Assembly: GCA_020049465.1 (NCBI GenBank)
Contig: JAIFKS010000011.1
Coordinates: 1 to 64,000 of the forward strand
DNA from: a bacterium
GTDB lineage: Bacteria; Krumholzibacteriota; Krumholzibacteriia; LZORAL124-64-63
Direction: 5' to 3'
DNA: 64,000 nucleotides
The translations under genes were made by a program, and so were the position numbers. Below the pieces are notes generated by a model. The model worked only from the letters and a program-made list of their open reading frames with translations. It had not been told where the DNA came from and made no database searches. Below, piece by piece: positions 7,345 through 47,486 of the stretch; within the stretch, counting starts at the first letter, position 1; the number at the start of each line of letters is the position of its first letter.

Positions 7345-7764
7345 TCAGTGCACGGAGAGTTCCCAGGCCCAGTTCGCAGCCAGCAGCAGCAGGACCAGCC
7401 AGCGCAGGGCCTTCACCGCGCCGCGGCTCAGATCCAGTGAGCGCCGCCACCTGGGCACGAAGGTGGCCGCCACCGCGTACAGGCACCACAGTCCACCGCC
7501 GAGCGCCACCAGGGTCAGCAGAGGGTTGGCCGTCAGCGCGGCCGGCAGGCGGCCCTCGGCCAGACGGATCGCCGCCAGCGTCCCGCCGCAGGTGGGGCAG
7601 GCGATGCCTACGCCTTCGCGCAGCGCGCAGTGGGCGCTGCGGAGCAGCAGGTCGGCGTTGACGCGGGCCAGCGTGGCGAACATCACCGCCATCATCAGCA
7701 GTGGGAAAGCCAGCAGGCGGGGAAACGGTGAACGTTCGGGCGCCAGACGCGCAGGTGTGGTCAC
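7345..7764 (-). CDS. DUF2752 family membrane protein
   Basis: A 139-residue protein with about three hydrophobic segments (near residues 15-33, 60-95 and 115-135). Between the first two it has the DUF2752 signature GIACPTCGGTLA, a CPxCGxT motif typical of this small inner-membrane family of unknown function. The start is a GTG at 7764 that overlaps the stop of the YIP1-like gene by four bases (GTGA), so the two are translationally coupled. A longer frame upstream is only antisense readthrough of the YIP1 gene. DUF2752 genes often accompany YIP1 or TM2-domain genes, as here; a role in membrane organisation is guesswork. Confidence 0.8.
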   Translation of the reverse strand: MTTPARLAPERSPFPRLLAFPLLMMAVMFATLARVNADLLLRSAHCALREGVGIACPTCGGTLAAIRLAEGRLPAALTANPLLTLVALGGGLWCLYAVAATFVPRWRRSLDLSRGAVKALRWLVLLLLAANWAWELSVH

Positions 7765-8441
7765 TGCAGGCCCATCAGTGCCAGCATCACCACCGCACCT
7801 ATCGTCGAGGCACAGATCAGAGCGGGCGCCAGCACCGCTACCATCGCACGCCAGGGATCGGTGCCGTGGATGCTGTACAGTCCGATCACATCGATCGCCA
7901 GTTCCCACAGCAGGGCGACCAGGCCGCCGCAGAACGGCAGCAGGGCCAGCACGCCGGCCGCCTGGCCGTAGGCCGCGACCCGGAAGGTAGCCTCGAATCC
8001 CAGCTGGTTGCCGCCCAGCAGCATCAGCATCAGGTGCATCAGCGCCGCCCGCACGAACACCGCGATGGCCACCGTCAAGGGGCTGCCCACGAAGGCGAGG
8101 AACGACCAGAGTGGACCGCGGAAAGCATCGCCCAGATCCTCGGCCACCAGCACCTGCAGTGAACTGCCGGCGAGCGACCACATCCACCCCAGGAACGCGG
8201 CCGTCACGCCCAGGATCAGCGCGTACAGCAGCGGCTGGGTCAGGCCCACGCGCGACGGCATGCGATGGAAGAACTTCTGCGGGGACATCAGCACTTCGCG
8301 CGTGGTCAGGTAGAGCGCGTTGAGGAATCCGAACTGTTCCCGGCGTTCCCACGGACACAGTTGGAGTCCTTCGGGGCCCTTCTCCTGGAAGCCGCCGTAA
8401 CCGCCGTAGCCGTTATCGCCGTCGTGATCGCGCGGTTCCAC
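7761..8441 (-). CDS. YIP1-family integral membrane protein
   Basis: About 226 residues. A hydrophilic Gly/Asp/Tyr-rich N-terminus leads into the YIP1 entry segment (FLNALYLTTREVLMSPQKFF), followed by five membrane spans. This 'treatment of a short cytoplasmic region before five helices' layout is typical of bacterial YIP1 proteins, whose function is unknown. I prefer GTG 8441 as start because GAAGGGG lies six bases before it; the frame also allows TTG 8459, which has no ribosome site. It overlaps the following DUF2752 gene by four bases, so the pair forms a two-gene operon. Confidence 0.78.
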   Translation of the reverse strand: MEPRDHDGDNGYGGYGGFQEKGPEGLQLCPWERREQFGFLNALYLTTREVLMSPQKFFHRMPSRVGLTQPLLYALILGVTAAFLGWMWSLAGSSLQVLVAEDLGDAFRGPLWSFLAFVGSPLTVAIAVFVRAALMHLMLMLLGGNQLGFEATFRVAAYGQAAGVLALLPFCGGLVALLWELAIDVIGLYSIHGTDPWRAMVAVLAPALICASTIGAVVMLALMGLQ

Positions 8442-8585: not shown

Positions 8586-9860
8586 TCATCCCGCCAGAAC
8601 GCCGGTCTCGCCCTCGCTGCGGGCCACGACCACCGCCACACAGGTGTCGCTGAACACGTTAACCGTGGTGCGGCACATGTCCAGCACCGGATCGATCGCC
8701 AGGATCAGCGCGATGCCCTCGAGCGGCAGTCCGGCCGCTTCCAGCACGATCGACATCATGACCAGTCCGGCCGCGGGAATCCCGGCCGCGCCGATGCTCG
8801 CCAGCAGGGCCGTCAGCACCACCACGAACTGGACCCCGAACCCCAGATCGATGCCGTAGGCCTGGGCGATGAACATGGCGGCCACGCATTCGTACAGCGC
8901 GGTGCCGTCCATGTTGATGGTCGCGCCCAGCGGCAGCACGAAACTCGTCACCCGGTTGCTGACGCCGGCGCGGTTCTCCACGCATTCCATGGTCAGGGGC
9001 AGCGTGGCGGAACTGCTGCGGGTGGAAAACGCGGTGAGAAGGGCCGGCGCGACGGCGCGCATGTGACGAAGTGCCGGCAGTCGGCCGACCACGCTCACCA
9101 GCAGCGGCAGCGTCACGAAGGCATGCAGCGTGAGCGCGCCCAGTACCACGAGTCCGTAACGCGCCAGCGGCCCGAAGGCCGCGAAGCCGCTGGTAGCGGT
9201 GATCTGCGCCACCAGCGCGAAGATGCCCACGGGAGCCGTGGCCATGACCCAGCCGGTGACTTTCATCATGGCGGCCAGCAGGCTCTCCCAGAAGCCGAGT
9301 TGCCGCAGGCGCATTTCTTCCGGCAGGGCCGCGACGCCCAGACCGAGGATGATGCAGAAGAAGATCAGGGCGAGCATGTCGCCCGCGGCCGCGGCGGCCA
9401 GGGGATTGTCCGGCACCATCCGCTGGACAATGCCGATGATGTCGCCGGCGCCGCGCTCTTCCAGCCCGGCCGCCAGGTCGGCCACCGGCGCGGTCAGCCC
9501 CAGGCGCGCGGCCACCGGACCTTGAGCGTCCACGCCCGGCCGCACCAGGTTGACCAGCAGCAGGCCCGTCAGGATGGCGATCAGGCTCGTGGCGATGTAC
9601 CAGGAGAAGGTCTTGGCGAAGAGCCGGCCCAGCCCGCGGCCGGCGCCGATGCCCGCCACGCCGGCGATGATCGACGCCGCCACCAGCGGCACGATCACCA
9701 TTTTCAGGCCGCGCAGGAACAGCGAGCCGACGAAAGCGAACGCGGTGACCGGCTCGAAGCCGCCGGGCGTTGCCGAGCCCTGGGGCCACAGCAGGCCGGC
9801 GCCGACGCCGAGCAGCAGGGCGATCAGGATCTGCCAGTGGAGGTCCAGACGGCGGCGCAT
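8586..9860 (-). CDS. Dicarboxylate/amino acid:cation symporter (DAACS family)
   Basis: A 424-residue secondary transporter that imports C4-dicarboxylates or acidic amino acids with Na+ or H+. It has about eight membrane helices and two re-entrant hairpins. The hairpin-1 Ser-rich motif is FSTRSSSATLP, and the helix-7 motif is INMDGTALYE, which supplies ligand- and sodium-binding residues. Length matches GltP, GltT and DctA. Whether glutamate/aspartate or C4-dicarboxylates are carried cannot be settled here. Transcription is divergent from the leucyl aminopeptidase gene, with a shared 204-base intergenic region, and an amino-acid substrate would fit that neighbour. Confidence 0.92.
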   Translation of the reverse strand: MRRRLDLHWQILIALLLGVGAGLLWPQGSATPGGFEPVTAFAFVGSLFLRGLKMVIVPLVAASIIAGVAGIGAGRGLGRLFAKTFSWYIATSLIAILTGLLLVNLVRPGVDAQGPVAARLGLTAPVADLAAGLEERGAGDIIGIVQRMVPDNPLAAAAAGDMLALIFFCIILGLGVAALPEEMRLRQLGFWESLLAAMMKVTGWVMATAPVGIFALVAQITATSGFAAFGPLARYGLVVLGALTLHAFVTLPLLVSVVGRLPALRHMRAVAPALLTAFSTRSSSATLPLTMECVENRAGVSNRVTSFVLPLGATINMDGTALYECVAAMFIAQAYGIDLGFGVQFVVVLTALLASIGAAGIPAAGLVMMSIVLEAAGLPLEGIALILAIDPVLDMCRTTVNVFSDTCVAVVVARSEGETGVLAG

Positions 9861-36186: not shown

Positions 36187-36271
<85 letters not shown>

Positions 36272-44823: not shown

Positions 44824-44899
44824 GGGCCGCTAGCTCATCAGGTAGAGCACCTCCCTTTTAAGGAGGTTGTACCGGGTTCGAGTCCCGGGCGGCCCACCA
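44824..44899 (+). tRNA. tRNA-Lys (anticodon TTT)
   Basis: A 76-base tRNA with encoded CCA (44897-44899). The acceptor stem GGGCCGC/GCGGCCC and D-arm with GGTAGAGC are standard. The anticodon stem CCTCC/GGAGG closes the loop CTTTTAA, giving anticodon TTT. The T-arm CCGGG-TTCGAGT-CCCGG is perfect. It reads AAA/AAG lysine codons. A terminator follows two bases after the CCA. Confidence 0.97.
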
Positions 44900-45527: not shown

Positions 45528-47486
45528 CTAGTTCTTGCCGTATTTCGTCGTCCACAGACGATCGAATTCCTCCACCGTCCGCTCGAACATGTCCATGGCC
45601 GCCACGATGGGCGCCGGCGTCTCCAGGTCGACGCCCGCGTTGCGCAGGATGTCCAGCGGCGGCGCGCTCGAACCGGCCTTCAGCATGTTGTTGATGTAGC
45701 GCTCGGCGGCCACGTCGCCGCGCGCGCTGATCTCATCGGCCAGCGCCAGGCCGCTGGTCAGGCCGGTGGCGTAGGTGAACACGTAGAAGTTGTAGTAGAA
45801 GTGGGGGATGAACATCCACTCGCAGGCGTCGTTGGCGGCCAGTTCGTAGTCCGGGCCGTAGTATTCCTTGATCATCTCCGCGTACAGCCCGTTGAGGAAC
45901 TCGGCCGTCAGCGGATTGCCCTGTTCGGCATGCTCATGGAAGCGCAGTTCGAAGTCCGCGAACAGCGTCTGGCGGAAGATCGTCTGACGGATCGATTCCA
46001 GCCGCTGATTCAACAACATCAGCTTGATGTCGACATCGTCCGCTTCGGCCAGCAGGTGGTTCGTCAGCAGCGCTTCGTTGCAGGTCGAGGCGACCTCGGC
46101 CAGGAAGGTCGTATAGCCGGCGTAGACGGGCGGCTGGTTGCGGCTGGAGAACACGGAGTGCAGGGCGTGGCCCATCTCGTGCGCGGTGGTGCTGACCGCG
46201 TCCAGCGTGTTGTCGAAGTTGTGCAGCACATACGGGTGGACATCCCGGGCCAGGCTGCCGTTGCTGTAGGCGCCGCTGCGCTTGTCCTTGCTGTAGGCGC
46301 CGCTGCGCTTGTCCTCGTTCGGATAGACGTCGATCCAGCCGTTCTTCGGATCCAGGCCTTCGGCCAGCAGCGCGCAGTATTCCTTGCCCAGCGGCTTGAG
46401 GCCCTCGGTGATCACGTTACGGGCCTGATCGTACGTGTACTCGGGCTCGATTCCCGCGACCATGGCGTTGTAGAGATTCGGGAACGTCAGCGCGCCGTCC
46501 AGGCCCATCACCTTGCGCCGCAGGTTCACGTACTTGTGCATCGTGCGGGGCAGGTTCTCGCGAACGGTGCCGATCAGCATGCGGTACGCGTCGGGGCTGA
46601 TGTTGTCGGGCGACAGGGCCGCGTCGAGGCACGTCTTGTAGCCGCGGGCGTCCTTGCTCATGATGTGCGACTTGACCGCACCGTCCAGCAGCACGGAGAA
46701 CGTGTTCTCGTAGCCGCGAAGCGTGCCGAAGAAGGCGTCGCGCGCCTGCACCCGCAGCGTTGCGTCGTCACTCGAGCGCAGACCCGAGAAGCCGCTGACC
46801 GTCAGGGGGATCTTCTTGCCCTCGGCATCGGCGATCTCGGGGAACTTCATGTCCACGCCCAGCAGGGATTCGTGGGCGTCGCCCGGGGTCGAGCGCATGT
46901 TGCCGGTCAACGCCATCAGGCGTTCCTCGGGACTGCTGAGCGTGAATTCCTTCTGCCGCCAGAGTTCCTCGAAGTAGTAGGCGTAGACAGCCAGGCCCTT
47001 GTCCTCGGCCATGAAATTGCGGATGACCGCAGGATCGATCTCCAGGAGCTCCGGCTGCATCCAGGATGTGGCTTCGCCGAAGGCCGGGAACAGCGCGGCG
47101 ACGCGGCCCTGCATCTGGCGGGCATGGCCGTCGCTCTGGTTCACGTCGTAGAGGGCCTGCGCATACGTGTAGAGCTTGGTCAGCCGGAGTCCCATCTCGG
47201 TGGCCGCCGCCTGGGCGTCCAGCATCGTGGCGGCCGATTCGCCAAGGCGTCCCTTGAACCCGTTGAGCTTCGGGATATCGGCCCCGACAGCCGCCAATTC
47301 CGCCTCCCAGGCGGCCTCGTTGGCGAAAATGTGTCCGGCGGCCCACTGGTATTCGGCGGGGATGGCCGAGCGCGGGGCGGACGGATCCGGTTTGAACTCG
47401 GCGCGGGCGCCGCCGGCGGCCAGGCAGACGCCGATGGTCAGGGCGAGAGCGGCGCCGGCGAGGTGACGGCTTGAAGGATGGGACAT
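45528..47486 (-). CDS. pepF: Secreted oligoendopeptidase F (M3B) with duplicated conserved segment
   Basis: A 652-residue M3-family zinc endopeptidase for oligopeptides. The zinc site is HEMGHALHS (HExxH), with the third ligand region in FLAEVASTCNEALL. Unlike cytoplasmic PepF it has a signal peptide (LAGAALALTIGVCLAAGGARA), so it acts outside the cytoplasm. The substrate-contacting segment normally reads KRSGAYSNG once; here DKRSGAYSK and DKRSGAYSN stand in tandem, from an exact 27-base duplication (46261-46314 on the plus strand). ATG 47486 follows GGAGGT; the frame extends to 47519. Whether the enzyme tolerates nine extra residues is unknown. Confidence 0.93.
   Translation of the reverse strand: MSHPSSRHLAGAALALTIGVCLAAGGARAEFKPDPSAPRSAIPAEYQWAAGHIFANEAAWEAELAAVGADIPKLNGFKGRLGESAATMLDAQAAATEMGLRLTKLYTYAQALYDVNQSDGHARQMQGRVAALFPAFGEATSWMQPELLEIDPAVIRNFMAEDKGLAVYAYYFEELWRQKEFTLSSPEERLMALTGNMRSTPGDAHESLLGVDMKFPEIADAEGKKIPLTVSGFSGLRSSDDATLRVQARDAFFGTLRGYENTFSVLLDGAVKSHIMSKDARGYKTCLDAALSPDNISPDAYRMLIGTVRENLPRTMHKYVNLRRKVMGLDGALTFPNLYNAMVAGIEPEYTYDQARNVITEGLKPLGKEYCALLAEGLDPKNGWIDVYPNEDKRSGAYSKDKRSGAYSNGSLARDVHPYVLHNFDNTLDAVSTTAHEMGHALHSVFSSRNQPPVYAGYTTFLAEVASTCNEALLTNHLLAEADDVDIKLMLLNQRLESIRQTIFRQTLFADFELRFHEHAEQGNPLTAEFLNGLYAEMIKEYYGPDYELAANDACEWMFIPHFYYNFYVFTYATGLTSGLALADEISARGDVAAERYINNMLKAGSSAPPLDILRNAGVDLETPAPIVAAMDMFERTVEEFDRLWTTKYGKN
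46261..46314. repeat. Exact 27-bp tandem duplication inside pepF
   Basis: Two identical adjacent copies, 46261-46287 and 46288-46314, beginning TTGCTGTAGGCGCCGCTGCG on the plus strand. In frame, it duplicates nine residues (DKRSGAYS plus one) of a highly conserved catalytic-domain loop. Confidence 0.95.

Follow-up and report, generated by a model that had tools for sequence, protein, structure and literature searches.

We have found that a pepF-like gene in the window (the whole stretch of DNA analyzed here, 64,000 nucleotides) carries an exact 27-bp in-frame tandem duplication in the GAYS segment of oligoendopeptidase F, and that the second copy is probably an assembly artifact, an origin assigned to it by the class of tandem pairs to which it belongs. 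The artifact is likely because the draft holds an excess of perfect tandem pairs, two such pairs lie at the ends of other contigs, another breaks the frame of a helicase gene, and the insertion is absent from all 28 relatives' loci that cover the site. It is also favored because the insertion sits in a block without indels in 26 orthologues. The preliminary description of this DNA had listed assembly error as one possibility among several, and it is the one that emerges as the most likely origin.

The window is part of contig C19 (66,567 bp) in a draft of 177 contigs and 3.92 Mb with an estimated completeness of 93.6%, whose nearest named relatives are bins of uncultured bacteria (isolates LJ_bin-5039 and Loclat_bin-10883). 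Among the 20 rows that Tandem Repeats Finder gave for the 64-kb window, the clear leader was a perfect repeat at 46261-46315, with a score of 110, 100% matches and 2.0 copies of a 27-base period. A direct scan of the window found two perfect tandem pairs with a period of at least 10, the pepF array included, and between 44000 and 49000 this array was the sole perfect pair of period at least 8. With 28 matches in an unbroken run at offset 27, it is not a chance occurrence. Both searches and the open reading frame (ORF) confirm the duplication that had been described at this location, although its extent needs amendment: the array is 55 bp long, as one extra base matches, and the inserted unit is the nine residues DKRSGAYSK, the junction adding a Lys. 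The features referred to below are as follows.

45528..47486, minus strand: pepF-like gene encoding an M3B oligoendopeptidase F of 652 aa, whose N-terminus is hydrophobic and resembles a signal peptide (from the ORF, TIGR00181 and Pfam matches and a comparison of N-termini).
46261..46315, minus strand: perfect tandem repeat with a 27-bp unit, one base longer than its two copies (Tandem Repeats Finder and direct scan).
46287..46313, minus strand: copy 1, codons 392-400, DKRSGAYSK, the nine residues unique to this protein (orthologue alignment).
46260..46286, minus strand: copy 2, codons 401-409, DKRSGAYSN, aligned with the conserved block of the family; modeled strand at 407-409 (alignment and model).
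46167..46181, minus strand: zinc-binding motif HEMGH at codons 436-440, with little or no variation in the alignment (ORF).

The repeat lies in frame within the 652-aa ORF, which runs from 47486 to 45528 with no stop or frameshift and reads ...DVYPNE-DKRSGAYSK-DKRSGAYS-NGSLARDVHPYV...HEMGH around the array. The conserved DKRSGAYS segment is 28 residues upstream of HEMGH, and the extra DKRSGAYSK precedes it. Judged by its sequence, the ORF is a full-length oligoendopeptidase F of the M3B type with predicted peptidase activity: it scored 529.3 bits against NCBIfam TIGR00181 (pepF), above the curated cut-off of 490.55, and also matched the Pfam domains PF01432 and PF08439 (Peptidase_M3 and Peptidase_M3_N). 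Residues H436, E437, G439 and H440 and the downstream E464, which we take to be the third zinc ligand, do not vary among 29 aligned sequences. Descriptions of PepF usually place it in the cytosol. The hydrophobic, signal-peptide-like start of this protein (47400-47486, minus strand), common to the orthologues of its family (f1), suggests an exported enzyme. Elsewhere in the window, tRNA-Leu (36187-36271) and tRNA-Lys(ttt) (44824-44899) are encoded on the plus strand.

Comparison with sister genomes uncovered no doubled, stable variant among the relatives. The block is single in the three congeners (81-82% amino-acid identity) and in 23 more full-length or nearly full-length orthologues of the family; with the partial loci L030 and L032, this amounts to one block in 28 of 28 orthologue loci covering the site, a count that leaves out the partial locus L031, which falls short of it. 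When the doubled block was searched for as a degenerate pattern, 1 of 58 genomes matched, that of the draft itself. A looser pattern matched in 4 of 80 genomes and its backward control in 7 genomes, and the letters of the three looser matches outside the draft show that they are not this block. There is next to no likelihood that the doubling is an old and stable variant of the family, given that the 27-bp-period form occurs in 1 of 80 genomes, again the draft itself, and that all three congeners have the single form.

The site is close to the catalytic motif and among the most constrained in the protein, as had been proposed: KRSGAYS ranks 14 of 589 seven-residue windows for conservation across the 26 orthologues. 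Between residues 45 and 586 these orthologues have three small internal indel sites, each of 1-3 residues; two of the three are just downstream of the block, at 413-415, and none of the 26 has an indel within it (gaps after residue 587 in the alignment are cut ends). On this alignment, the insertion is unique and placed where the family appears to tolerate nothing. The preliminary description had also taken the identity of the two copies to imply a recent event. Nucleotide identity is weak evidence for recency because 7 of the 26 orthologues, of which four belong to other genera, have exactly the nine codons of copy 2, although whole-gene codon identity at shared residues is only 66-74% in those seven. 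Absence from the three congeners is the better bound, and by this comparison the event, if real, postdates the split of the species. The same genome has two further M3 peptidase matches, a full-length paralogue on C36 (L002; 37% identity) and a fragment cut by the end of C47 (L003; 47% identity). The C36 paralogue was considered as the donor of the second copy and rejected, since its single block differs in sequence.

A slippage-prone or phase-variable site, expanding and contracting over time, had been suggested as well. A 27-bp tandem repeat, once formed, can contract again. Against such a site stand the microhomology of one base, the weak secondary structure (DNA folding was near that of shuffled controls, z -0.75 to -1.54) and the single block at every one of the relatives' loci; a search of the array for the marks of replication slippage, namely flanking direct repeats and a hairpin, found none beyond the one matching base. 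We consider this origin highly improbable.

The evidence that bears most on the origin of the copy comes from tandem pairs across the draft. In the draft, 1,159,223 bases in 81 pieces were sampled, the window included, and in the three congeners (G001, G002 and G003) 721,283 bases; these samples are uneven, as G003 is represented by one long contig and G001 and G002 largely by contig starts. Low-complexity rows were removed before rates were counted (3 of the 16 initial rows of the draft and 4 of G001). Perfect pairs with a period of at least 20 numbered 13 in the draft vs 1 in the congeners (one-sided p 0.011); G001 has a perfect 21-bp pair. Near-perfect pairs (85-99%) numbered 12 vs 4, with no significant difference (p 0.32). 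The excess in the draft is concentrated in the perfect class. Perfect pairs were also close to contig ends more often than expected: 4 of 13 within 500 bp (p 0.005), 5 of 13 within 1000 bp (p 0.010) and 6 of 13 within 2000 bp (p 0.049). Away from contig ends the excess was 8 vs 1, which is suggestive only (p 0.074). Five pairs have clear coding DNA on both sides, and three of these are in frame and two out of frame, where a blind process would be expected to leave one third in frame; the numbers are tiny. Two of the three in-frame pairs bear contig-end fingerprints, and since both pairs so marked are in frame, being in frame does not prove the pepF pair real.

These fingerprints consist of a redundant contig that ends at the pair. 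The 36-bp unit at 375-447 of C64 (L144) lies where the first 411 bases of that contig match the last 411 of C152 (L197; 11,560 bp) at 93%, and the terminus of C152 is exactly copy 1 of the repeat plus one base. For the 30-bp unit at 339-398 of C45, base 1 of C107 matches position 368, the last base of copy 1, and the match extends over 269 bp at 94%. Redundant contigs were found at these 2 of the 7 places searched in the draft's own genome (pepF, C27, C39, C45, C64, C79 and C77, whose two pairs are treated as a single place); none was found at the C27, C39, C79 and C77 pairs, and the bin has no other contig ending at the pepF array. The 411 bp shared by C64 and C152 at 93% identity, both in one bin, look like strain variation left in the bin. 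Separately, the first 91 bases of C11 (L053) and C56 (L116) are a perfect shared end in opposite orientation, and the two contigs look like neighbors whose overlap was left in place.

Other pairs coincide with broken genes. On C39 (L099), a perfect 50-bp tandem pair at 320-419 splits a helicase ORF that bears the motifs VDEFQDTN and GDDDQSIYSWRGA, by which it is presumably UvrD/PcrA-like. All three congeners have the helicase as one uninterrupted ORF of 799-818 aa, and in G001 the matching stretch falls 50 bases short of the query length. On C27, the coding frame changes where a 31-bp pair lies (8717-8779). On C77 (L157), perfect pairs of 43 and 20 bp (7653-7739 and 8064-8104) lie about 0.4 kb apart and look like a short patch glued in at its two edges. 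Matches in two congeners fall short by 75-81 bases, as fits the pairs, which were left out of the frame-breaking count because of their unclear coding frames. From these sequences, the pairs on C64, C45, C39 and C27 appear best explained by overlapping contig ends that were joined untrimmed.

Under this explanation, neighboring contig ends or short gap-filling pieces of the draft would overlap by about 20-67 bases, and where such ends are joined end to end without trimming, the overlap would be written twice. At pepF the overlap would be 27 bases; this length is divisible by three, so the frame would survive and the gene would resemble a variant with a nine-residue insertion. We infer both the joining step itself and the common origin of the pepF pair with the other pairs. 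Several observations speak against assembly error at this gene. The array is in the middle of its contig, 20 kb from the nearer end, is in frame and lacks a redundant contig, and assemblers that join via long k-mers normally carry such a junction only if the reads contained it. A rough sum gave 0.59 for the artifact on the observed counts, with the constraint on the site not yet considered, and falls to 0.35-0.09 if the single pair counted in the congeners understates their true number. The mid-contig position and the lack of a redundant contig leave room for a real, recent in-frame duplication, a possibility of appreciable weight that falls well below an even chance.

Such a duplication could be either tolerated or harmful. 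In the tolerated case, to which we give a modest chance, a lineage-specific in-frame duplication would have arisen after the split from the congeners, with copy 2 keeping the active-site strand and copy 1 looping out near the cleft, where it may alter substrate entry. The rest of the gene is intact, the orthologues have their 1-3-residue insertions just downstream, and the perfect 21-bp pair in G001 implies that real duplications or other such cases arise at some rate. The AlphaFold model of the protein with the insert also retains the fold, with a mean pLDDT of 87.5 vs 88.0 for the G001 orthologue; the best PDB match of both models was 3ce2 (TM-score by target length 0.93), and the model with the insert matched 2qr4 at 0.85. 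Where the insert is included, the pLDDT drops below 50 at 393-398 in copy 1, and copy 2 supplies the strand at 407-409, the equivalent of a strand predicted with confidence at 397-400 of the G001 orthologue. The models suggest that, if the copy is real, copy 2 would keep the active-site strand and copy 1 would form a disordered loop. The change to a substrate-contacting loop that had been described would hold only if the copy is real: the extra nine residues are modeled in a low-confidence loop, while the conserved strand would be retained. The model is consistent with tolerance but is not independent evidence for it, because the input alignment had already put copy 2 on the family block, so that the choice of copy 2 partly reflects what was supplied. 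Also against tolerance are the placement of nine residues in a very conserved block that is indel-free in 26 orthologues and the surplus of perfect pairs across the draft, contig-end fingerprints included.

In the harmful case, which we regard as quite unlikely, the duplication would be a loss-of-function or minority strain allele, with the two paralogous M3 matches covering for the enzyme. The extreme conservation of the site and the presence of the C36 and C47 matches are compatible with damage, and the other perfect pairs break frames, as a mutational process would too. The gene, however, has no other lesion and is generally kept, with a match in 44 of 58 genomes searched, including every genome of family f1, and the contig-end fingerprints favor assembly for the class as a whole.

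A functional role can also be imagined, although the chance of it is very slim: the enzyme might dock either copy of the active-site edge strand next to the zinc, so that the substrate cleft would have two registers and cleavage specificity would be altered. In a PDB profile search, the GAYS block aligned with K-x-S/G-G-G-Y of Pz peptidase A and related enzymes. An M3-family dipeptidyl carboxypeptidase is reported to bind its inhibitor via two backbone hydrogen bonds of Met420, with Ala as the equivalent in ACE homologues (PMC5157764). By its position before HExxH, the Met420 strand may correspond to GAYS of PepF.

Exact short tandem duplications in drafts are easily mistaken for evolution in action. 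This draft suggests that many of them are doubled contig overlaps, two of which sit at the end of another contig, and it argues for a check of the reads before in-frame insertions are called in conserved enzymes. Perfect tandem pairs of 20-70 bp, in any frame and close to contig ends, offer a simple screen of draft quality. If reads backed two copies of the pepF unit, it would be a compact natural insertion at a site under strong constraint in an M3 peptidase.

The protein resembles PepF of the M3B type (TIGR00181) in passing the curated cut-off, in its HEMGH motif and in having, by sequence and model, the fold of 3ce2 and 2qr4; it differs in the nine extra residues before KRSGAYS and in the hydrophobic N-terminus that it has in common with the family f1 orthologues. 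Literature searches returned a single protease review for M3B structures, nothing for Pz peptidase and mostly other families for PepF structures, and a search on overlap artifacts in bacterial drafts found nothing specific. The false duplications known from assemblies (PMC9516828, PMC8081667) are alike in that sequence doubled at a join reportedly led to a false biological reading; they concern vertebrate assemblies and larger duplications, whereas this bacterial draft has units of 20-67 bp. Tandem duplications that keep the frame in KPC beta-lactamase genes (PMC12593533) likewise place a short exact copy in a loop near the active site. They are reported from cultured isolates and were tested for their activity, whereas the pepF repeat is known from draft sequence alone.
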